From Crassaminicella indica (GTDB lineage: Bacteria > Bacillota > Clostridia > Peptostreptococcales > Thermotaleaceae): a DNA stretch of 64,000 nucleotides. A program made the position numbers and the translations under genes. The first letter of the stretch is position 1. The number at the start of each line of letters is the position of its first letter. The notes under the pieces are model-generated. The model saw only the letters and a list, made by a program, of their open reading frames with translations, was not told the origin of the DNA and ran no database searches. The stretch is taken from NCBI RefSeq assembly GCF_019203185.1, contig NZ_CP078093.1:310001-374000 (forward strand). The letters run 5' to 3'. Of the stretch, positions 50,254 to 61,325 are shown piece after piece.

Positions 50254-50703
50254 TTACTGTTCAGACCAATTTGCAGGAAATACTATATAAATAAATTTTG
50301 CATATTCACTAGCAGAAAACTGAATAGAAGAATCTTTAGGGATAAATATAATATCTCCTTTATTTCCAACAACTCTTCTTCCATCAATAACAATTTCTAA
50401 AGTTCCTTCTAAAATCACATCTACCTCATCATATTTGAGAGTCCAATCAAAGGTTGAAGCTTTCATTTCCATCACACCACAGCCTAATCTTGGACTTTCT
50501 TTTAGTGTTAAAACATCTTTTAGAAAAACTTTATCTTCAGCTTTTCCTGTGTCAAATTTTTCGAGCTTTACAGTAGATGTCTTAACAGCAATTACACCGC
50601 TAGGATCTATATGTTTTTCAAATTTATCTTGTGAAATATTTATTTTTTCCATAATAATTTTCCTTACGATTTCCTCAATCATTTTAGCATCTATATTTTG
50701 CAT
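50254..50703 (-). CDS. eutQ: Ethanolamine utilization protein EutQ
   Basis: This cupin-fold protein of about 149 aa has ESPRLGCGVMEMKASTFDW, YDEVDVILEGTLEIVIDG and KGDIIFIPKDSSIQF. In enteric bacteria EutQ has acetate kinase activity associated with the microcompartment; that activity here is inferred. An N-terminal helix (DAKMIEEIVRKIIMEKI) looks like an encapsulation or shell-binding peptide. The ATG at 50701-50703 has AAAGGAGATG upstream; the in-frame TTG at 50721 does not. Last gene of the operon. Confidence 0.9.
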   Translation of the reverse strand: MQNIDAKMIEEIVRKIIMEKINISQDKFEKHIDPSGVIAVKTSTVKLEKFDTGKAEDKVFLKDVLTLKESPRLGCGVMEMKASTFDWTLKYDEVDVILEGTLEIVIDGRRVVGNKGDIIFIPKDSSIQFSASEYAKFIYIVFPANWSEQ

Positions 50704-50729
50704 AAAAGCATCTCCTTTCAATTCATTAC

Positions 50730-51833
50730 CTATTCAATAGTTTGGGTAGTTTTATTTTCATCAGCAGTCATATAATAAGCAAGCATTACTGCTGTTACAC
50801 CTGCTACTAATTTCCCAACAATCATAGCAGCAATCATATCTTTGTTTACACCTGCTGCAAATCCTAAATGATCCCCAAATACAAAAGCTGCACTTACTGC
50901 AAAGGCAACATTAATAACCTTCCCTCTATTATCCATATCCTTCATCATACCGAACATAGGAATATTATTTGCAAGGGTTGCAATCATACCTGCTGCTGCT
51001 ATATCAGACATACCCAATAATGCTCCAACTTTCATTAATGGTTTTTTAAGTACCTTTGTTATTACAACAACTAATGGATATGCTCCTGCTAAAACAATTG
51101 CAATACTTCCAATAATTTGAATTCCTTCACTAATAGGTGCCATTCCATGAATAATAACAATTTTTCCTCCTGTCAAGGTTTCGACAATAATAGAAGCTAA
51201 ACCTACAGTAATAACAGCTGTTACCCCTTTACCAAAGTAATTAAATCCTGAAATCATTTTTCCTGGAATCTTCCATAGACCAATTGCAATAAGTATAGAG
51301 AATATAATAATTGGAACTAGATTGCTTAAAACCATACCAATTGAAAAACCCGCAACCAGTCCACCAATAAAACAACCTATAGGAATCGTGATCATTCCTG
51401 CAAGAACACCTTTTGCTAAAAATGGCTGATCCTGCTTTTGAATAATTCCTAACGCTACTGGAATAGTAAATACAATTGTAGGACCCATCATAGAACCTAA
51501 TATCAAACCTGCAAATTCTGCTGCTTCCTTTGTATTAGCCATCTCATGTGCTAACGGATATCCTCCCATATCACATGCCAATAAAGTAGTTGCAAACATA
51601 GATGGATCTGCTCCTAATTTTGTATAAATAGGTACAATAACTGGCTTTAAAACTGTTGCGAGTACTGGAGCTAAAGAAACAACCCCTACCATAGCCAAAG
51701 CTAATGCTCCCATAGCATTAAAGCCTTCTTCAAACTGCTCTCCTAATCCATATTTATTTCCTATGATTCTATCTACTGCGCCTAAAAGCATAAATCCGAC
51801 CATGATATATAAAATAATATCATTAATGCCCAT
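50730..51833 (-). CDS. eutH: Ethanolamine permease EutH
   Basis: This 367-aa membrane protein has about ten hydrophobic segments and the EutH family signature regions MGINDIILYIMVGFMLLGA, ACDMGGYPLAHEMA and FGDHLGFAAGVN. It imports ethanolamine across the cell membrane, which matters mainly at low pH or low ethanolamine. It overlaps the upstream gene by 11 nt, so translation is coupled. Confidence 0.95.
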   Translation of the reverse strand: MGINDIILYIMVGFMLLGAVDRIIGNKYGLGEQFEEGFNAMGALALAMVGVVSLAPVLATVLKPVIVPIYTKLGADPSMFATTLLACDMGGYPLAHEMANTKEAAEFAGLILGSMMGPTIVFTIPVALGIIQKQDQPFLAKGVLAGMITIPIGCFIGGLVAGFSIGMVLSNLVPIIIFSILIAIGLWKIPGKMISGFNYFGKGVTAVITVGLASIIVETLTGGKIVIIHGMAPISEGIQIIGSIAIVLAGAYPLVVVITKVLKKPLMKVGALLGMSDIAAAGMIATLANNIPMFGMMKDMDNRGKVINVAFAVSAAFVFGDHLGFAAGVNKDMIAAMIVGKLVAGVTAVMLAYYMTADENKTTQTIE

Positions 51834-52266
51834 TCTTCAATCCCCCCTTATTTATAATCTCCTCATGTGGTGAAGGAATAACAACAACTTCTATTTTATG
51901 TATTCTAATAAAGTCCTTTGCTAATGGAGAAATAATAGTTTTTTTCCCTACTTGAATCCCTCTTTTTCCATTTTTATATATTTTTCTTAAATCCATCTCT
52001 GAAATAAGCCTTTTATGAGTAAAATCTATCACTTCTTCATCGCATTCATTTTTAGTTTCATATGCTGGTTCTTCTAAAGGCATTCCTTCAATCTTTTTAT
52101 TATTTATTTCTTCTAAAACGATATTTTTTTCCTTTATAGACTTATCCTGTTCCTTCTCACATTCTAAAAGATATTTTTTTTCATCTATCTGTTCCAAACT
52201 ATATAAGCTGCGTATTTTTTTCATTACTTCTCGTGTTACAGCCTCAACAAAACAATTTACATCCAT
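51823..52266 (-). CDS. Eut-associated hypothetical protein (TIGR02536-like)
   Basis: This protein of about 147 aa sits between eutT and eutH, where Firmicute eut operons carry a conserved protein of unknown function. The N-terminus (DVNCFVEAVTREVMKKIRSL) is an amphipathic helix like an encapsulation peptide. The middle is charged and probably disordered. The C-terminal KKTIISPLAKDFIRIHKIEV resembles the N-terminus of EutT (NDIITPAASTYLSDRNIKLV). The second ATG (52264-52266) is better spaced from AGGAGAG than the first. Confidence 0.72.
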   Translation of the reverse strand: MDVNCFVEAVTREVMKKIRSLYSLEQIDEKKYLLECEKEQDKSIKEKNIVLEEINNKKIEGMPLEEPAYETKNECDEEVIDFTHKRLISEMDLRKIYKNGKRGIQVGKKTIISPLAKDFIRIHKIEVVVIPSPHEEIINKGGLKNGH

Positions 52267-52332
52267 TATCATCTCTCCTTACTAAGAACAATTCATTGCT
52301 ATCCCTAAAGGAGTCATATTATTACCATCTCC

Positions 52333-53085
52333 CTATTTATACTTTTGAGCTAACAGCTTCAACATCATAATATAAAAACAGCTACTTAACCGATTCAGTA
52401 ATCTTAAAATATCTTTTCTTTTTATATCACCTTCTCTATCTTTAAATGCATTTATAGCTGCTATTTCTGTTTCCCTTACAACTGTTCTTAGCTCATTTAA
52501 AACAATAAAGCATTCTCCTTCCTTGTAGGAAGGGTAAAAAATATGGTCCACGCCTAAATACTTTTTAGGATTATGAGATTTTTCTCTTATTTCATCTAGA
52601 CTCATTCCTAACAAACTATGTTCTTTAATTTCTTCATCCATTACTTCTGCACGAAGAATCCTTCGTACAACATCCATAATCTCTTCTAAATCCTTTAATA
52701 AATCACCCTTTTTCTCTTTAAAAGCAACAAACTGAGCATAAAGAATTTTTGCTTCTAAACTGTCTATTTTACCTCTGAATAAGATACGAGGATGATCTTT
52801 ATCTACCAGCTTATTTCCATATATCTGTGTCATATGCTCAGGCTTTTTTTCAATAAATCCACCTGAGATACATTCAAATCGCGGGAAAAATTCTTTTTTA
52901 TCTTCTTCCTTATCATATTTATCTTTTTCTTTTAATATCTCATCTTCATACACAAGCTTAATATTTCTATCACTAAGATAAGTACTTGCAGCAGGGGTAA
53001 TAATATCATTTTTATTTATTTTAAAAGTTTTAATGTTTTGATTTCTCAATCGACTTCGCAGCTTAGCTTCGGTTAATACACTCAT
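52333..53085 (-). CDS. eutT: Ethanolamine-associated cobalamin adenosyltransferase EutT
   Basis: EutT makes adenosylcobalamin, the cofactor of ethanolamine ammonia-lyase, from ATP and cobalamin. The 250-aa protein has the Firmicute EutT N-terminus MSVLTEAKLRSRLRNQNIKT with the ITPAASTYL element, and a C-terminal helical PduO/EutT-type domain (about 105-245) with LFRGKIDSLEAKILYAQFVA and LNELRTVVRETEIAAINAF. The enteric EutT His/Cys metal motif is not obvious. It lies 57 nt downstream of eutM with a GC-rich hairpin in between. Confidence 0.85.
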   Translation of the reverse strand: MSVLTEAKLRSRLRNQNIKTFKINKNDIITPAASTYLSDRNIKLVYEDEILKEKDKYDKEEDKKEFFPRFECISGGFIEKKPEHMTQIYGNKLVDKDHPRILFRGKIDSLEAKILYAQFVAFKEKKGDLLKDLEEIMDVVRRILRAEVMDEEIKEHSLLGMSLDEIREKSHNPKKYLGVDHIFYPSYKEGECFIVLNELRTVVRETEIAAINAFKDREGDIKRKDILRLLNRLSSCFYIMMLKLLAQKYK

Positions 53086-53114
53086 ATTGTCACATCCTTT
53101 TAAATTGGATATAC

Positions 53115-53136
53115 TCCCGGACTTTTACATCCGGGA
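53115..53136. other. Hairpin between eutM and eutT
   Basis: TCCCGGA/TCCGGGA form a 7-bp stem with an 8-nt loop, GC-rich for this genome. No T-run follows. It may stabilise the upstream mRNA or mark a processing site, giving more EutM than EutT. Confidence 0.5.
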
Positions 53137-53142
53137 AATGGA

Positions 53143-53427
53143 TTAACCTTCAAGTTTTGGTAAAATGAATTCTACTTCATTATGTGGTCTTGGAATTACA
53201 TGTACAGATAATAATTCTCCTACTCTTTCAGCAGCAGCAGCTCCTGCATCAGTAGCTGCTTTTACAGCTCCTACATCTCCTCTTACCATTACTGTTACAA
53301 GTCCTCCTCCTACTAAAACCTTTCCTATTAATGTAACATTTGCCGCTTTTACCATTGCATCTGCTGCTTCTACTGCTCCTACCATTCCTTTTGTTTCTAT
53401 CATTCCTAATGCATTTGTATTTGCCAT
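53143..53427 (-). CDS. eutM: Microcompartment shell protein EutM
   Basis: This 94-aa single-BMC-domain hexamer-forming shell protein has [41 protein letters not shown] and [16 protein letters not shown], very close to EutM/PduA. The second ATG (53425-53427) is properly spaced from GGGAGG and matches known EutM starts. It packs into the facets of the ethanolamine compartment. Its strong ribosome binding site fits high expression. Confidence 0.96.
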
Positions 53428-53515
53428 AATCATTCCCTCCCCATATTTTTTTATATGAACAACGTAAGAATCAAATAATGAAGTATAAAAAGATAAGAGA
53501 ACACCTCTGATAACA

Positions 53516-53636
53516 TTACTTATCCATATTTAACTTTTCTAATACTTTAGAAACAATCATTGTAATAATCTCTTCATTTTGCTCACAATAATTTTTTATA
53601 ATATGTTTCTATCATACCTATTGCAGCTTTTGTCAT
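53516..53636 (-). pseudogene. Frameshifted remnant between eutL and eutM
   Basis: After a clear ribosome binding site (GGGTGA) an ATG opens MTKAAIGMIETYYKKLL and stops. The next frame continues NYCEQNEEIITMIVSKVLEK to a stop. Joined across an A-run the two make about 40 residues: a BMC-like start (AIGMIET, compare ALGMIET of EutM) and an amphipathic C-terminal helix. It may be a shell-protein gene with an internal deletion plus a one-base indel. A short functional protein with a sequencing error is an alternative. Confidence 0.5.
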
Positions 53637-53647
53637 TTTAAATCACC

Positions 53648-54304
53648 CTAATACTCTGATGGATTTTCAGCAACAAATTTTACTGCTGCAGCAAATGCAT
53701 CACATGCTGCTTTACATGCTGACTGACTTCCAGTTAAAAGGCCTCCTCCAAAATTTGTTTCTGATGGTGGTCCAAAGAAGGTTTTTAATTCTACTGCCGC
53801 AGCTTTCATAGCAGCATCAAGTCCATACATAGCTTCTAATGGAGGTGCAATCAAATAAGCCAACGCCTCCCCTTCTTTTATTCCTGCTGTCTCTGACAGA
53901 TATGAACCTGTTCTAGAAATGCACTGTGCATAATATGGAATAGAATCATCATCATTTGCACTATAGAAGGTTGCCACACCACTTTCAATAAAATCTACAG
54001 CAGCATTTAGTCCACTTCGTACCTCAGCTGGTGTAGGCCCTGCTAAAATACCTATAAATTCTCCAGCCAACTTCGTACTTGCATTAGCAGCTCCTGCATA
54101 CATAGATTTTGCATATACAACTGCTACAGCTGCTTTTTTTGTAGCCTCATCTATAGCTGTATACCCTACATCATCGCAGTCAGTAGTAATTAATCCTAGA
54201 CTTTTATGTTCTGGTTTTAACTCTAAAGCTTTTGCCACTTCTGGATTTATATTTGGAATGATCTTTACACTTAAAACAGTGGTTTTTAAAGGATCATTTT
54301 TCAT
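53648..54304 (-). CDS. eutL: Microcompartment shell protein EutL
   Basis: This 218-aa tandem-BMC trimer-forming shell protein has a central pore thought to gate ethanolamine or cofactors. EutL signatures: IPNINPEVAKALELKP, SLGLITTDCDDVGYTAIDEA, AGPTPAEVRSG, YYAQCISRTGSYLS and FFGPPSETNFGGGLLTGSQSA. The start has GGAGTA upstream. It follows eutC by 23 nt. Confidence 0.96.
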   Translation of the reverse strand: MKNDPLKTTVLSVKIIPNINPEVAKALELKPEHKSLGLITTDCDDVGYTAIDEATKKAAVAVVYAKSMYAGAANASTKLAGEFIGILAGPTPAEVRSGLNAAVDFIESGVATFYSANDDDSIPYYAQCISRTGSYLSETAGIKEGEALAYLIAPPLEAMYGLDAAMKAAAVELKTFFGPPSETNFGGGLLTGSQSACKAACDAFAAAVKFVAENPSEY

Positions 54305-54327
54305 CTTTACTCCTCCTATTTATAAAA

Positions 54328-55200
54328 TTACAATTTCAATTCCACACCGCTAATTTTCTTATCAAGCATTATTTTAATAACTTCAGCTATATGTGCTCCT
54401 GCTTCTACGGGAGGTGTTCCTCCTTTATGAATATTAGAAATAACATTTCTTCTTGATTCTGGCATACCAATTGTTGCCTTATAAGCAATATATGCACTCA
54501 TACTTTCTGCTGTAATAAGCCCAGGTCTTTCTCCAATTAAAACACAAGTAACATCTGCATCTAGTGCCTCAGATATTTCATCCATAGCTCCAACTCTTCC
54601 ATATTTCACAAAGAATGGAGTTCCTACACTTATTCCATAGCTTTCAAGTCCCTGCATGATAGCTGGTAAAACATCTTTTACATTTGCTTCAATAGCTGTC
54701 GAGCTTAACCCATCTGAAACATATATCTGAACTTGAGGTTTTTTATTACATTTATCTTTTATTATTCCTATCTGATCTTCATCAAATTGTTTTCCTAAAT
54801 CTGGACGTGTTAAGAACTCATCTTTATCCTTGCACTTTGTTTTTACACTAAAAAGCTTCAATTCATTAATAAAATCATCAGAAACATCTGTAAACACAGC
54901 ATCTTGTGCTGCAGCATGGTCTGCTCTAAATCGAAGCATAGTATCTGTTTTGTATCTTACACCAGCTCTTCCGACTCCAATTCTAGCAGGCGTATATGCT
55001 TTCATTTTCATATAACCATTTTTATCGTGAGCATCTTCAACTAAAAACCACTCTTTAAGATCCAAAGCCACAAGATCTCTCAAATCTTCATCATATTTTT
55101 GAGTATCTACACTTTCAATTTTATTTTCTACTTGTTCTTTTGCTACCATTTGCGCTATTACTTTTTCAATCAATCTCTTTATATCTTTTTCTTCTAACAT
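54328..55200 (-). CDS. eutC: Ethanolamine ammonia-lyase small subunit EutC
   Basis: With EutB this adenosylcobalamin enzyme turns ethanolamine into acetaldehyde and ammonia. The 290-aa protein has YTPARIGVGRAGVRYKT, LRFRADHAAAQDAVF, VSDGLSSTAIEANV and LIGERPGLITAESMSAYIAY. The N-terminal helix (EEKDIKRLIEKVIAQMVAKE) is a typical microcompartment targeting peptide. It lies 11 nt after eutB. Confidence 0.97.
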   Translation of the reverse strand: MLEEKDIKRLIEKVIAQMVAKEQVENKIESVDTQKYDEDLRDLVALDLKEWFLVEDAHDKNGYMKMKAYTPARIGVGRAGVRYKTDTMLRFRADHAAAQDAVFTDVSDDFINELKLFSVKTKCKDKDEFLTRPDLGKQFDEDQIGIIKDKCNKKPQVQIYVSDGLSSTAIEANVKDVLPAIMQGLESYGISVGTPFFVKYGRVGAMDEISEALDADVTCVLIGERPGLITAESMSAYIAYKATIGMPESRRNVISNIHKGGTPPVEAGAHIAEVIKIMLDKKISGVELKL

Positions 55201-55211
55201 ACCTTCACCTC

Positions 55212-56579
55212 CTATTTATTTAAGAATATAGAAGCGTCTCCTGCTCGCTTCGTTAATTTACCATTTTCATAAATGCCCATATTTTCAAGCCAAGCTTCAA
55301 ATTCCTTTATTGGTCTTAATCCCAATAATTCTCTTAAAGCTGGCGTTTCATGATAACCTGTGCATTGATAATTAAGCATAATATCATCTCCATGTGGCAC
55401 ACCCATAAAGTAGTTGCAGCCTGCAGTAGTTAATAATACAGCTAGATTTTCAATATCATTTTGATCTGCCTTCATATGATTCGTATAGCAAGCATCACAG
55501 CCCATAGGAATACCCGTAAGCTTACCCATAAAATGATCTTCAAGCCCTGCACGAATAACTTGTTTATTATCATACAAATACTCAGGTCCAATAAAACCTA
55601 CTACAGTATTTACTAAAAACGGTTTATATCTTTTCGCAAATCCATAGCACCTTGCTTCCATTGTCACTTGATCTGCTCCAAAATGAGCATCAGAAGAAAG
55701 CTCTGCTCCTTGCCCTGTTTCAAAATACATTACATTCGGTCCTGTAGAAGTTCCTTGTTTTAATACTAATTCTCTGGCTTCCTCTAAAAGTTTTGCTGTA
55801 ACACCAAATGCTTCATTTCCTTTTTGAGATCCTGCTATACTTTGAAAAATCATATCTGTTGGAGCTCCCTGTTTTACAGCCTCCATTTGTGTTGTTACAT
55901 GTGCAAGTACGCATTGCTGTGTAGGAATTGCATATTTTTTCTTAATTTCATCAAATTTTTTAAGAACTTTTGATACATTACTTACTGTATCATCAACTGG
56001 ATTTAGTCCAATAACAGCATCTCCTACCCCATAAGAAAGACCTTCTAAAGTAGCTGCTACAACACCGTCTATGTCATCTGTAGGATGATTAGGCTGAAGT
56101 CTAGCAGATAATGTGCCTTCTAATCCTATTGTAGTGTTGCAATGAGCACTTACTCTCACTTTCTTTGCTCCATAAATCAAGTCTAGATTAGACATAATTT
56201 TAGCTACACCAGCAACCACCTCACTAGTAAGGCCCCTACTAATTCTTCTAATATGATCTCCTGTAGTATTTTCATTTAGAATCCATTCTCTAAATTCTGA
56301 AATACTCCAGTTTTGTATTTCGTCGTAGATACGCTCGTTTACATCATCTTGAATCACTCTTGTTACTTCATCATCTTCATATGGTACTACTGGATTATTT
56401 CTCAAATCTTTTATACATAAATTACTTAAAACTTCCTTTGCTGCAATTCTTTCTTCAGCACTTTCAGCAGCAATGCCTGCTAAATTATCCCCTGACTTTT
56501 CTTCATTTGCTTTAGCTAAAACCTCTTTTATAGAGTTAAAGCTATACACTTTGCCAAATAATTTCGTTTTCAATCTCAC
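55212..56579 (-). CDS. eutB: Ethanolamine ammonia-lyase large subunit EutB
   Basis: This is the catalytic subunit of about 455 aa. Family signatures: MRLKTKLFGKVYSFNSIKEV, GDNLAGIAAESAEERIAAKE, FETGQGAELSSDAHFGADQV, GFIGPEYLYDNKQVIRAGLEDHF and GVPHGDDIMLNYQ. A GTG at 56577-56579 is better spaced from AAGGGG than the upstream in-frame GTG (56588). It is flanked by eutA (9 nt) and eutC. Confidence 0.97.
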   Translation of the reverse strand: MRLKTKLFGKVYSFNSIKEVLAKANEEKSGDNLAGIAAESAEERIAAKEVLSNLCIKDLRNNPVVPYEDDEVTRVIQDDVNERIYDEIQNWSISEFREWILNENTTGDHIRRISRGLTSEVVAGVAKIMSNLDLIYGAKKVRVSAHCNTTIGLEGTLSARLQPNHPTDDIDGVVAATLEGLSYGVGDAVIGLNPVDDTVSNVSKVLKKFDEIKKKYAIPTQQCVLAHVTTQMEAVKQGAPTDMIFQSIAGSQKGNEAFGVTAKLLEEARELVLKQGTSTGPNVMYFETGQGAELSSDAHFGADQVTMEARCYGFAKRYKPFLVNTVVGFIGPEYLYDNKQVIRAGLEDHFMGKLTGIPMGCDACYTNHMKADQNDIENLAVLLTTAGCNYFMGVPHGDDIMLNYQCTGYHETPALRELLGLRPIKEFEAWLENMGIYENGKLTKRAGDASIFLNK

Positions 56580-56596
56580 TGATTTCACCCCTTATT

Positions 56597-58030
56597 CTAA
56601 GAATTAAAAACAAGTGTTTTTATAACAACAGGAACAACCTTCCCATTTGCTAACGGTTTTCCAATATCTACATAATCTCCATTTTCAACTTTGATACTAT
56701 CGATAGATATTATATCCTTCTTAAAATCCAATTGTTTATGTATGGCTTGCCCTAATACCTTCCCTATATCACGCTCTACAATAATCATTAGAGGCTCTTT
56801 TGATGCTATAAGCTCTTCACAGCCGCAAGTAATTGCAGATGCAAGTTCTTGAATCTCTTTAAAGCTAGGATTTTTAGGACCTTTAAAAGCTACTGCCACA
56901 GATTGGCTCTCTTCTTCTAGATGAAACCACTTTAACTTTTGACGGATAGCACTTTCAATCCCTATTTTTCCACTTTTTTCATCATTGATTGAAAGCTTTA
57001 AAATAGGAATATTTTTTATTGGAAAAATATCCTTCGTATAAGTTATTGTACTTCCACTTATATCTGTAGTATGAGATCCAGCTCCTACTACAGTAGCTCT
57101 TATCGTCTCCTTAGGCTTTATGATGTTTAGCCTTCGAAATTTTAGGTGCTTACGTAAAGCTTCTCCAAGCAATATTCCTATATCTCCATATTTTAAAAGC
57201 TCCTGAATATCCTCTTTGTATATACAATCTGCAACACCACCAGAAAACGTAACCCCATCAAAATCATAGCCTTCCTTTATTCCTTTATTGGTTATCATCA
57301 TATTGTAATTTGCATTTCTTTCTTGAATCCCTATAGCTTGTGCTAATACATCAGCCATAGCCTCAGCTATTTTTCTAAGTGTATCAAAAGAAACTAATTT
57401 CCCCTTTTCAATATGAATCCCAAGACTTTTTGTAAGTCTTTTGACTTTATCTGAAATATAACGTACTTTCATACTTTCCTTATCTATTTGAATAAGTCTT
57501 CCTCCAATATCCATGCACCCAGTATCAATAACTTCTCCGTCTTGAAAAACAACTATATTAGAAGTCCCTCCACCAATATCTATATTAACGATCAATTTAT
57601 TTTCATCTTTTGATATCTTATCAGCACCAGCTCCTCTTCCAGCAATAATAGCTTCTAAATCAGGTCCTGCTGTTGCCACAACAAACTCTCCAGCTAAATC
57701 GCTCAAGCTTTTCAAAACTTCTTGTGCATTTTCTTTCCTTGCTGTTTCTCCTGTAATAATTACTGCACCTGTCTTAACCACTTCAAGCTGTACTCCTGAA
57801 TTTTTATATTCTCCTTCAACTATTTCTTTTATTTTTTTACCATCAATAATTCTTTCTGTAATCAGCGGCGTAAAATAGATTTTACTTTTATAAAAAACCT
57901 CTTTTTCTACTATCTTAATTCTTGGAATTGAAAAGCTCGTTGCTGTATTTTCAATAACAATCCCACTAAAAACAAGCTGTGTCGTAGATGTACCAATATC
58001 AATCCCTACGCTTATAATTTTTTCTTTCAA
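56597..58030 (-). CDS. eutA: Ethanolamine ammonia-lyase reactivating factor EutA
   Basis: EutA exchanges damaged cobalamin on EutBC using ATP. This protein of about 477 aa has an actin/Hsp70-like ATPase fold: [17 protein letters not shown] (phosphate 1), [14 protein letters not shown] (phosphate 2) and [16 protein letters not shown] at 58028-58030 follows GGCGGTG at good spacing; GTG at 58039 is an alternative. It lies directly behind an antiterminator-terminator leader, so its expression, and that of all genes after it, depends on EutV. Confidence 0.94.
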
Positions 58031-58068
58031 TAAAAACACCGCCTTAGTTAAAAAAATTTACAAAAAAA

Positions 58069-58098
58069 GCCCAAAACAAGCATATAACTTGTTTGGGC
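58069..58098 (-). terminator. Regulated intrinsic terminator upstream of eutA
   Basis: On the minus strand GCCCAAACAAG pairs with CTTGTTTTGGGC (one bulge) and is followed by TTTTTTTG. Its 5' arm overlaps the second ANTAR hairpin, so EutV binding should prevent it forming. Confidence 0.85.
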
Positions 58099-58135
58099 CT
58101 CTTTGCCTTATTCATAAATACTTCCTCGTATTTAT
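58096..58135 (-). promoter_or_regulatory. ANTAR (EutV) double hairpin upstream of eutA
   Basis: On the minus strand P1 is ATAAATAC-GAGGAA-GTATTTAT (8-bp stem, hexaloop, G at position 4) and P2 is GGC-AAAGAG-GCC (hexaloop with A at 1 and G at 4). P2 overlaps the terminator stem. P1 has G instead of the expected A at loop position 1. Confidence 0.72.
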
Positions 58136-58141
58136 TCTATT

Positions 58142-59542
58142 CTATTTTTTAAAATCAAAGCCAACAATCGTTCCATTAGAATCAGATTGAATATTCATCC
58201 TTCCTCCAAGTTTGTCAGTAACTATACTCTTTACAATATTAAGTCCTAAGCTATTTGGATTTACACATTCATAATCAAAGCCTTTTCCATTATCAACTAC
58301 AGTAATTCTTGAATACAATTCTCCTTTTTGTATATATACTGTAATCTTTCCTTTTGCCTGATCTTCAAAAGCATATTGGATTGAATTTTGAATCAGTTCA
58401 TTTATAATCAATGATATGTCTGTAGCCTTGTCAGAATCTACACGCAACTCATCTCCGATAATTTCCATATCTATCGATTTTTCTTTAGACAAATACCCTT
58501 TTTGCATGCCGTCTATAATCTTTGAAATAACTTTTTTAATATCAACATGATCAATTCCCTGCTGTGCTAAAATTTCATGAGTTGCTGCAATTGATAAAAT
58601 GCGATTTATACTTTCATTTAAAATATTTTTAAATTCCTGATTTTCAATTCTTCTTGATTGCAACCTCAAAAGACTAGCAATTGTTTGCAAATTATTTTTC
58701 ACTCTATGATGAATTTCTTTTATTGCTACAGATTTTAATATCAATTCTTTTTCTTTTTTTCTCATATCCGTTATGTCCTTAATGAAAATTATAAAATAAT
58801 TACGATAAAAAATATATTTTAACTGAAGCGTCAAATTACAAAATTCGATTTCAGATATCCTATCATTTTTTTCTTCAATAATATTTTCAAATAGTTTTTG
58901 TTCTAAAGAAATATTATTAAAATGCATCCCTATAAGAGAATCCATAAATCCTAACTTTTTATAAAGCTGTTCTGCTACTAGATTTGTATAAATAACATTT
59001 CCACTTTTATTAAACATGATAATTCCTTCATCTAAATGATAGGTTATTTCTTTGTCTCTTTCTAGTTCAATGATTTCATTTGTCAATTTTTCATTCATTT
59101 CAGCTAAAAACTCAATTTTTTTATCATGATGCATATCCTCTGTAATATCTTTTTCTACAATCAGTACCCCTATAGTCTTTCCTTCTGCATTTTTAATAGG
59201 ATTAACTGTTTGCTTTACATTAATATTTTCCTGTGTAATCCCTTTTATGTCTCTAGAAGTAATCTCTATTTCTAACGTACGTATAACAGCTGGCTCGTTT
59301 TCTCTTAAAGCAAACTCACCTACTACATTTCCTTCATACATAGATTTACCATATGTAGGCTTTGCTTCAGCTACAACAATAGCCCTATTAGGATCTCTTG
59401 TAGCACAGTCTATAAATACATCTGCATTAACTAAATCTGCAATATTTTGAAGTACTGTTTCAGCACATTCTAATTTAAATATATCTTCGTCTTCTAAATC
59501 AGTATGGATTTTACATAGCTTTCTTAATTTACTCATATGCAT
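58142..59542 (-). CDS. eutW: Ethanolamine-sensing histidine kinase EutW
   Basis: EutW senses ethanolamine and phosphorylates EutV. This 466-aa soluble protein has an N-terminal GAF-like sensor of the type found in PdtaS/EutW kinases (about 1-130, with FIDCATRDPNRAIVVAEAKP), a coiled coil, a PAS-like domain (about 165-265), a HisKA_2 domain with phospho-His in EIHHRVKNNLQTIASLLRLQ and a HATPase (ELIQNSIQYAFED, VVDNGKGFD, SLGLNIVKSI). Its start overlaps the end of eutV by 10 nt. Confidence 0.93.
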   Translation of the reverse strand: MHMSKLRKLCKIHTDLEDEDIFKLECAETVLQNIADLVNADVFIDCATRDPNRAIVVAEAKPTYGKSMYEGNVVGEFALRENEPAVIRTLEIEITSRDIKGITQENINVKQTVNPIKNAEGKTIGVLIVEKDITEDMHHDKKIEFLAEMNEKLTNEIIELERDKEITYHLDEGIIMFNKSGNVIYTNLVAEQLYKKLGFMDSLIGMHFNNISLEQKLFENIIEEKNDRISEIEFCNLTLQLKYIFYRNYFIIFIKDITDMRKKEKELILKSVAIKEIHHRVKNNLQTIASLLRLQSRRIENQEFKNILNESINRILSIAATHEILAQQGIDHVDIKKVISKIIDGMQKGYLSKEKSIDMEIIGDELRVDSDKATDISLIINELIQNSIQYAFEDQAKGKITVYIQKGELYSRITVVDNGKGFDYECVNPNSLGLNIVKSIVTDKLGGRMNIQSDSNGTIVGFDFKK

Positions 59543-60123
59543 AAATCTGACTCATTATAGCTTAAAATAATAATCTCTGAGATTTCTTTCATAGATGTTC
59601 TTTTATCCATACTGAGCTTTCTAAGTTTTACATAAGCTTCCTGCTCGTTAATAGAATATTTATTCATCAGTATTCCTTTTGCTTTTTCTATCTTTTTCCT
59701 TGCATCTAATTTTTCATTCGTTGATTCCAATTTTTTTGTAACCTCTTCTAATTCATTTGCATTAGATAGAGCAATTTCTAATGTGGTCAACAAGCTTTTT
59801 TCATCAATTGGCTTTACTAAATAACCTCTAACCCCTACCTTCTTTGCCTTATCTATAAAATTCTTACTGCTATAGGCTGTCAATAAAATTATAGCTTTTG
59901 CTAATCTTTCATTGCGTATTATTTGTGCCGCATTGATACCATCTAATAAAGGCATCTTTATATCCATAAGTACCAAATCTGGTTTGAATTTCCTGCACAA
60001 TTCAATAACGTCAAATCCATCCTTTGCTTCACCTACCACATTGTAGTTATTTTGAAGAAGCATTTCGATTAAGTCTAGTCTTGTAATAGGATCATCTTCG
60101 GCTATTACAATCCTTTTTTTCAT
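59533..60123 (-). CDS. eutV: ANTAR response regulator EutV (antiterminator)
   Basis: This 196-aa protein has a receiver domain (1-120; Asp54 in LVLMDIKMPLLDG) and a C-terminal ANTAR RNA-binding domain (about 135-190, IEKAKGILMNKYSINEQEAY). When phosphorylated by EutW it dimerises, binds double hairpins in nascent mRNA and blocks terminator formation. Target sites of this type lie upstream of eutV itself and upstream of eutA. It is the first gene of the operon. Confidence 0.94.
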   Translation of the reverse strand: MKKRIVIAEDDPITRLDLIEMLLQNNYNVVGEAKDGFDVIELCRKFKPDLVLMDIKMPLLDGINAAQIIRNERLAKAIILLTAYSSKNFIDKAKKVGVRGYLVKPIDEKSLLTTLEIALSNANELEEVTKKLESTNEKLDARKKIEKAKGILMNKYSINEQEAYVKLRKLSMDKRTSMKEISEIIILSYNESDLCI

Positions 60124-60236: not shown

Positions 60237-60272
60237 GGAACCTATAGATGTTGAAAAACATCCATAAGCTCC
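60237..60272 (-). terminator. Regulated intrinsic terminator in the eutV leader
   Basis: On the minus strand a 16-bp stem with three G-U pairs, GGAGCTTATGGATGTT against AACATCTATAGGTTCC around a 4-nt loop, is followed by TTTTGTTTT. The 5' arm overlaps ANTAR hairpin P2. Confidence 0.85.
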
Positions 60273-60299
60273 ATTGCTCTCTTACACTTCATTGTGCAA
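60266..60299 (-). promoter_or_regulatory. ANTAR (EutV) double hairpin in the eutV leader
   Basis: P1 is TTGCAC-AATGAA-GTGTAA and P2 is GAGC-AATGGA-GCTT on the minus strand. Both hexaloops have A at position 1 and G at position 4, the published ANTAR consensus. P2 overlaps the terminator stem, as needed for antitermination. Confidence 0.85.
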
Positions 60300-60312
60300 T
60301 TAATTTATATAT

Positions 60313-60341
60313 ATTTTACCTTATTGTGTTATTTGTGTCAA
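60313..60341 (-). promoter_or_regulatory. Promoter of the eut operon
   Basis: The -35 TTGACA (60336-60341) and -10 TAAAAT (60313-60318) have exactly 17-bp spacing. The transcript would begin about 10 nt before ANTAR hairpin P1, giving a leader of about 180 nt. Confidence 0.8.
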
Positions 60342-60431
60342 TATTTAGATTTTTTATTTTCTGAATTTTCTTTCAGTAATAATTGTTTTAATATTTCATG
60401 CTTCTAAGGAATAATTTACTATTTGCATATT

Positions 60432-61325
60432 TTATAATTTTTTTCCTATACGCTCTCCCATATTCACCTTTGTTTCTATTCCTTTTTGTGTATTCTTTAA
60501 AATATCCTCATCAACCTTTAATTGCCCTTCCTTTAAAAACAAAACAACTGTTGACCCTCCAAATTTAAAATAACCTTTTTCTTCTCCTTTATGAACATGA
60601 ACTTTAGGAGTATATGTCTGTATGATAGATCCAACACAGGTTGCCCCAACCTCAGCAAATACTATTTCTCCAAAATTATCAGACTCAAATATAGTTATTG
60701 CTCTTTTGTTTTGACAATAAACTTTGGCAATCCTTTGAAGAGCTATAGGATTTACAGAATAATACATACCTTTTATATTTTTAGCTTCATAAGGCACTCC
60801 ACTATCAGGAAAATGGAATCGATGGTAGTCTGCTGGACATAATCTTATTACTATACACACTCCATTATGATATATTTGAGCCATATTTTTATCATGAAAA
60901 AATTCTTCTAGAGTATAAAAAGACCCCTTCACTTGAATTACTTGATCCTTATGAATATTTTCATAAGCAAGTACTCGTCCATCTGCTGGAGAAGTTAAAT
61001 GATTTTTTTCCATATCAATAGGTCTTGCTTCATTTTTTAATTTTCTTGCAAAAAAATCATTAAAGTTTTTGTATTCATCAATATTTTCTATTTCAGCTTC
61101 ACTCATATCAATAGAAAGCTTCTCTACAAAATCTGCTATCTTTTTTTTACTAAAAACAGTATCCTGAAATTTTCCATATATAGATGAAAATATTTTTTTC
61201 TTCACAAAAGTATCGAGAATTGCATTTCCCATGTCTGTATCATAAATCCATTTTAAAAATTTATCTCCCGCTACAATTTCTTTTATCTTTTTTCCAGTTT
61301 TTCTTTCTATATAATAAATATCCAT
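60432..61325 (-). CDS. psd: Phosphatidylserine decarboxylase proenzyme
   Basis: Psd makes phosphatidylethanolamine by decarboxylating phosphatidylserine at the membrane. The 297-aa proenzyme has the motifs [44 protein letters not shown] and the self-cleavage site FGGSTVVLF, where the serine becomes the pyruvoyl group. Start is ATG after GGGTGATG. It sits upstream of the eut promoter on the same strand, about 300 nt from eutV. No partner pssA is adjacent. Confidence 0.95.

Follow-up and report, generated by a model that had tools for sequence, protein, structure and literature searches.

Genes of the eut locus

The window, which is the whole stretch of Crassaminicella indica DNA that was analysed (64,000 nucleotides), encodes on its minus strand the response regulator EutV and the sensor kinase EutW, followed by eutA and a series of other genes of ethanolamine utilization (Table 1). 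The genes eutL and eutM were named from the BMC domains, size and place of their products, and the matches of eutT, eutQ and the TIGR02536-like protein are below the NCBIfam cut-offs. The last of these, a protein of 149 aa encoded between eutT and eutH (51823-52272, minus strand), matched only the C-terminal part of TIGR02536, a family named as a hypothetical ethanolamine utilization protein, with 47 bits against a cut-off of 152.6, and had no Pfam match at E values up to 0.001.

Table 1. Features of the eut locus and of a second ANTAR gene (window positions unless a locus is named).
Feature	Position	Strand	Description	Basis
eutV promoter	60313-60341	-	TTGACA-17-TAAAAT; 11 of 12 consensus matches	consensus match only
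Leader of eutV, P1	60282-60299	-	TTGCAC-AATGAA-GTGTAA; 6 bp, hexaloop AATGAA (A1, G4)	sequence, fold, descriptor, R1
Leader of eutV, P2	60266-60279	-	GAGC-AATGGA-GCTT; 4 bp, hexaloop AATGGA (A1, G4), bases in common with terminator	sequence, fold, descriptor, R1
Leader of eutV, intrinsic terminator	60237-60272	-	GGAGCTTATGGATGTT-TTTC-AACATCTATAGGTTCC; 16-bp stem and tetraloop, then T-rich tail TTTTGTTTTA	fold and terminator scan
eutV	59533-60123	-	receiver and ANTAR response regulator, 196 aa	Response_reg and ANTAR over Pfam cut-offs
eutW	58142-59542	-	sensor kinase: GAF_PdtaS, HisKA_2, HATPase_c	domain search
Second leader, P1	58114-58135	-	8 bp, hexaloop GAGGAA (G1 in place of A1; G4 present)	R1 and folding
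Second leader, P2	58096-58107	-	3 bp, hexaloop AAAGAG (A1, G4)	R1 and folding
Second leader, terminator	58066-58102	-	overlaps P2, followed by T run	folding and descriptor (16 positions, 2 mismatches)
eutA, eutB, eutC, eutL, eutM, eutT, TIGR02536-like protein, eutH, eutQ	50254-58039	-	behind second gate	
Second ANTAR protein	L001 1486-2055	-	directly behind glutamine synthetase-like gene	

EutV of C. indica keeps Asp54, and its best relative of solved structure by sequence is PDB 6wsh/6ww6 (E = 1.8e-56 for 6wsh), labelled 'Response regulator', which we infer to be the Enterococcus faecalis EutV of PMC8934654. The available part of that EutV-RNA structure paper places the residues compared here at the RNA interface; nine of the 11 RNA-contact residues are kept in C. 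indica (R142, K143, K147, K149, E160, Y164, R168, M172 and R175), and the other two, N173 and R177 in E. faecalis, are D173 and S177, at positions that also vary among 10 aligned relatives.

No acetaldehyde dehydrogenase is encoded in the window. EutE-like dehydrogenases are present in a separate choline cutC/cutD microcompartment locus of the genome (L127/L128, G000:C1:1398000-1432000), where the sole EutN-type vertex protein detected in this genome is also encoded, and the eut ammonia-lyase may depend on this cut locus.

Leader upstream of eutV

Between psd (phosphatidylserine decarboxylase; 60432-61325) and eutV, the minus strand carries a promoter-like sequence (TTGACA at 60341-60336 and TAAAAT at 60318-60313, with a spacer of 17 nt), two hairpins, P1 and P2, and an intrinsic terminator. 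An earlier note on this DNA had placed these features, and its coordinates for all of them proved exact to the base on re-reading and folding; the loops AATGAA and AATGGA with A1 and G4, and the 16-bp terminator that shares bases with P2, were likewise found as it had described them. Both loops (60299-60266) satisfy the hexaloop rule of EutV-type leaders (A at position 1, G at position 4), P2 overlaps the 5' arm of the terminator as is expected of that type, and the gene directly downstream, eutV, encodes the cognate ANTAR response regulator. The linker between P1 and P2 is 2 nt and the two loop starts are 18 nt apart, compared with a minimum of 19 nt in the 38 rows of the covariance model R1 (described below) and with 16-17 nt in three Bacillus-type descriptor matches that were left out of R1. 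The sequence features that define an EutV/ANTAR leader are present, and its hairpins are spaced at the short end of the range.

About 113 nt of leader separate the end of the terminator from eutV, which might suit an attenuator responding to some other ligand, or a leader peptide. Such a device is extremely improbable here: only about 7 nt lie between the expected start site and P1, and no Rfam riboswitch was found in the window at the gathering score.

The whole leader folds with a free energy of -31.7 kcal/mol (z = -6.4), a value that none of 200 shuffles equalled, and this low free energy is mostly due to the terminator. With the terminator half left out, P1 and P2 fold as described above, and 7 of 200 shuffles fold equally well. 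With both strands of the window counted, there were five dual hairpins with ANNGNN loops, while 100 shuffles gave 4.84 on average, and a meaning for dual hairpins by themselves was rejected because this count is at chance. The combination of a dual hairpin with an overlapping terminator was found once in the window by a descriptor scan that demanded A1; the 100 shuffles contained four in total with terminators of 8 bp or more, and none when a mismatch-free terminator of 12 bp or more was required. This combination thus exceeds chance. The promoter is one of two sites scoring 11 of 12 in the 14 kb scanned, in which 68 promoter-like sites were found and 69.0 were expected, a total at chance.

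The chance-level count of dual hairpins alone would also fit a leader that is no leader at all, in which the hairpin is a mere terminator of the upstream psd and P1 and P2 arose by chance, and no other terminator-like site among those listed lies between the end of psd (60432) and the leader. We consider this very unlikely indeed. Psd and the hairpins are separated by a promoter-like site, and the terminator stands between this site and eutV; the pattern of loops, closing pairs and P2 scores 33.2 bits in a model that was never trained on this leader; and homologous leaders are present in relatives. Since no terminator-like site is listed for psd in 60342-60431, its transcript would be either cut or passed on by the eutV leader.

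Covariance model searches

The covariance model R1, which is distinct from the published model, was built in this analysis from 38 related eut leaders, excluding those of the window. Its rows were drawn from 44 plus-strand descriptor matches, of which three were dropped as doubtful or oddly spaced and three more, of the Bacillus type with a spacing of 16-17 nt, were left out at alignment. The helices vary in sequence and pairing is kept in 95.8% of cells, in rows that were chosen for having hairpins; because A1, G4 and a terminator were required of every row, the pair counts and the preference of R1 for A1 lean on this selection.

In the held-out search the eutV leader was matched at 60300-60265 with 33.2 bits (E = 1.5e-5), and so passed, with the model built here, the covariance check that the earlier note had proposed. 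A second match (58134-58094) reached 30.3 bits (E = 6.5e-5), and the next in the window had 13.5 bits. In the 2.76-Mb genome the same two sites ranked at the top, followed by a third at 19.2 bits (E = 0.83), among the 150 of 2092 first-look candidates that were scored.

The wider sample comprised 28 loci from the genomes of relatives (a list that also includes the window's own locus) and 80 named loci, which we divided by our own judgement into 45 eut-type or near loci and 35 other loci of ANTAR relatives; L004/L032 and L023/L068, whose contigs are equal in length, are probable duplicates, and L021/L022 are near twins. In the 45 loci R1 had 75 matches with E no higher than 0.3, some of the weaker of which may be chance; 72 were on the strand of eutV and three on the other, and 36 were members of the model. 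In the 35 other loci there was no match at E up to 0.3. EutV matches at E up to 1e-30 were found in 26 of 98 genomes, with the window's own counted; the genus has three further genomes in this set, and all of them lacked such a match. Among the EutV-bearing genomes of the same order, 19 of 21 had an R1 match at E up to 0.1 and two had none. A plasmid search returned a single match, of 274 bases, in Acetoanaerobium noterae.

The genome encodes another ANTAR protein, whose gene (C1:243107-243268) lies just behind one that reads, by eye, as glutamine synthetase (glnA). According to the available text of PMC3369931, ANTAR proteins recognise similar loops, and the eutV leader might in principle be opened by this protein, which would tie the eut genes to nitrogen status instead of ethanolamine. 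This is very unlikely, as the leader abuts eutV and resembles the eut leaders of relatives, and the 19 kb around glnA contain no comparable R1 site (best 10.4 bits). A weak dual-hairpin candidate with a 7-bp terminator, also scoring 10.4 bits by R1, was noted upstream of the glutamine synthetase-like gene (L129 near 11129, minus strand).

Second leader upstream of eutA

The 30.3-bit match belongs to a second leader in the gap between eutW and eutA (58135-58066, minus strand as a whole), which is absent from the earlier note and was overlooked also by the descriptor that demanded A1; it was revealed by R1 and by a relaxed descriptor. As in EutV-type leaders, its P2 and the 5' arm of its intrinsic terminator overlap, and G4 is present in both loops, with A1 in one only.

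Loops with G at position 1 (G1) were found in other leaders too, and for this reason G1 is no ground for dismissing the second leader. Loop sequences were taken at set distances from the ends of each match in 107 rows: the 75 matches of the eut-type loci and 32 of the 36 matches in the loci of relatives (two cut by the ends of loci and two with E values of 0.81 and 0.96 were dropped). Among the 75, G1 occurs in loop 1 of eight and in loop 2 of nine, and seven lack G4 in loop 1; among the 32, G1 occurs in loop 1 of one and in loop 2 of 12. In none of the 107 rows, some of which are duplicates or weak, is G1 present in both loops together. Matches before eutA had G1 in loop 1 in four of 26 cases, compared with none of 20 before the eutV unit. 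That G1 occurs in either loop, though never in both, suggests an A1 rule looser than usually stated. In E. faecalis, changing loop position 1 lowered induction (available text of PMC3369931), and the second leader of C. indica, with G1 in its P1 loop, is possibly the weaker gate.

Leaders in related eut loci

The dual hairpin with its terminator was found again in the eut loci of relatives. There were 42 related loci with eutV and either eutA or eutB, in 34 of which eutV is followed by eutW. A leader is present within 1250 nt of eutV in 18 of the 31 eutV-eutW loci with at least 1200 nt of upstream sequence each, and none is present there in the other 13, although six of these (L036, L057, L058, L065, L066 and L077) have an R1 match further upstream. 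A leader precedes eutA in 23 of 33 eutV-eutW-eutA loci and is lacking in 10. Small genes taken as eutS-eutP, or as eutS, usually lie between the leader and eutV in relatives, where eutG, eutS and eutP were named from their size and position. The window's arrangement looks like this common layout without eutS and eutP.

A leader directly before eutV, with no same-strand ORF of at least 50 aa between them, was found in L007 and L008 (genomes G014 and G010, of one genus of the window's family); in L060 the leader is 99 nt before eutV, and the cases of L010 (14.3 bits by R1) and L013 (15.7 bits) are weaker. The idea that the layout in the window is uniquely autoregulatory was therefore rejected, leaders near eutV being common in relatives and leaders directly before eutV being present in other genomes.

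In Clostridium thailandense (L042), a single stretch of 12.9 kb contains three eutV-like matches together with R1 matches that, read at fixed offsets, have no G4 in the first loop. Within the family of C. indica, one genus has two genomes in which R1 matched a third site, outside the eut loci (G007:C52:15584-15623, 27.4 bits; G013:C13:846317-846356, 25.7 bits), possibly a further target of EutV or a sponge.

Proposed regulation of the operon

The stretch upstream of eutV is very probably an EutV-type ANTAR antitermination leader. That such a leader precedes the regulator's own gene, as the earlier note had it, is well supported by the held-out score, by the receiver-ANTAR gene downstream and by the recurrence of such leaders in related eut loci, with no R1 match at E up to 0.3 in the 35 other loci of ANTAR relatives. 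The same note had extended positive autoregulation to the whole operon through this one leader. The layout with a leader before eutV holds, but a single leader for the whole operon was rejected, since a second leader with its own terminator precedes eutA. With one leader before eutVW and one before eutA, the operon has two gates, the second of which must be passed by transcription of eutA and the genes after it.

Binding by EutV, the start site, ethanolamine as the signal, read-through and autoregulation in vivo are what we infer from this architecture, and the sequence of events would be as follows. RNA polymerase would start a few bases before P1; in the absence of a signal, the 5' arm of the terminator would capture the bases of P2, and transcription would stop before eutV. 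When ethanolamine is sensed, EutW would phosphorylate EutV, dimers of which would hold P1 and P2, so that no terminator forms and eutV-eutW is transcribed; more EutV would then yield more EutV. Because the first gate also controls eutV and eutW themselves, the initial EutV and EutW must come from basal read-through. The polymerase would then meet the similarly built leader before eutA, and the genes for enzymes, shell and transport would pass through two gates.

The available text on E. faecalis describes the same antitermination mechanism, with EutVW-dependent induction from the eutS leader (PMC3369931): once phosphorylated, EutV holds on to the hairpins, which keeps P2 out of the terminator and lets the polymerase continue (PMC3369931, PMC8934654). 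Alteration of the linker length, including its reduction to 3 bases, lowered induction in that system (PMC3369931, as far as available). Positive autoregulation of eutV is plausible from the layout, and earlier work already implies that a leader of this kind can mediate it, considering the eutS leader of E. faecalis as described in the available text together with the gene order of Enterococcus mundtii, in which a leader precedes a 115-aa gene (taken as eutS) and eutV. A narrow literature search, conducted below the level of full texts, brought up no test of whether eutV is autoregulated by the leader that precedes it. The leader is real, its anatomy was correctly read, and it is ordinary in kind, a switch of a known and well-described type; one more eut operon can thus be placed under EutV antitermination, with two gates rather than one.

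Possible B12 input

In E. faecalis and Listeria, the EutX/Rli55 sponge combines an AdoCbl riboswitch with an EutV site, and the available text of the 2018 review that describes it (PMC5821096) asks whether Clostridium has an EutX-like B12 sponge outside the eut locus. The window contains no EutX-like layout, having no cobalamin riboswitch at the Rfam gathering score. No strong ANTAR site was found beside the genome's seven cobalamin riboswitches (R1 scored at most 11.0 bits in the 3-kb loci around them), and no third strong ANTAR site was found among the 150 of 2092 first-look R1 candidates that were scored, so that the lack of a match is not proof that a sponge is absent. As these searches found no sponge, the question raised in that part of PMC5821096 is testable in this genome. 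A pared-down eut operon is conceivable, with two ANTAR gates set by EutV alone and no B12 sponge, in which acetaldehyde from the ammonia-lyase would be handled by the aldehyde dehydrogenases of the cut microcompartment, perhaps inside the cut shell, although we hold this combined scheme to be doubtful.

An AdoCbl riboswitch followed by an ANTAR dual hairpin was found in three control loci, which yields candidate EutX-like RNAs in Enterococcus mundtii (L062 7907-8273), Pontibacillus litoralis (L055 280-663) and Levilactobacillus angrenensis (L066 8292-8634). Two very similar genomes from the order of C. indica (G019:C2:39714-40211 and G030:C3:397352-397841) each have a cobalamin riboswitch on the strand of the eutV unit, at 271 and 263 nt, respectively, upstream of its leader, which is possibly a B12 input.

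Comparison with known systems

The eutV leader had no Rfam match at the gathering score. The best weak match was to Listeria rli56 (RF01483, Cis-reg), full-length, with 25 bits (E = 0.018 for 146 nt), and membership in this family was rejected because its gathering threshold is 47. We take rli56 to be located near the Listeria eutV; a literature search for rli56 and eutV together found no paper.

Judged against the available text of PMC3369931, the window's leaders resemble those of eutP, eutG, eutS and eutA of E. faecalis in having two hexaloop hairpins, with P2 lying over an intrinsic terminator; G4 is present in all four loops of the two leaders, and A1 in three of the four. Also shared with E. 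faecalis are the encoding of EutV and EutW in the same operon and the leader before eutA. Unlike the E. faecalis arrangement as described there, the leader in the window directly precedes eutV with no eutS or eutP between them, its spacing is tight (18 nt between loop starts), the eutA leader has G at position 1 of the P1 loop, and no EutX-like B12 sponge was found.

Close parallels are also in the loci of Clostridioides difficile, Romboutsia, Clostridium, Maledivibacter and others (L032-L064). These loci differ from the window in that small genes taken as eutS and eutP, or as eutS, usually lie between the leader and eutV, and in some of them a third leader is present still further upstream. 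Of the C. difficile leaders, one stands before a 376-aa gene (taken as eutG), one before eutV-eutW and the 116-aa and 149-aa genes ahead of them (taken as eutS and eutP), and one before eutA; 14 nt at P2 of the window (AGAGCAATGGAGCT) are common to one of the C. difficile leaders (L049:7601-7637). Many of the loci in this group resemble the window in that the eutVW unit and eutA are each preceded by a leader.
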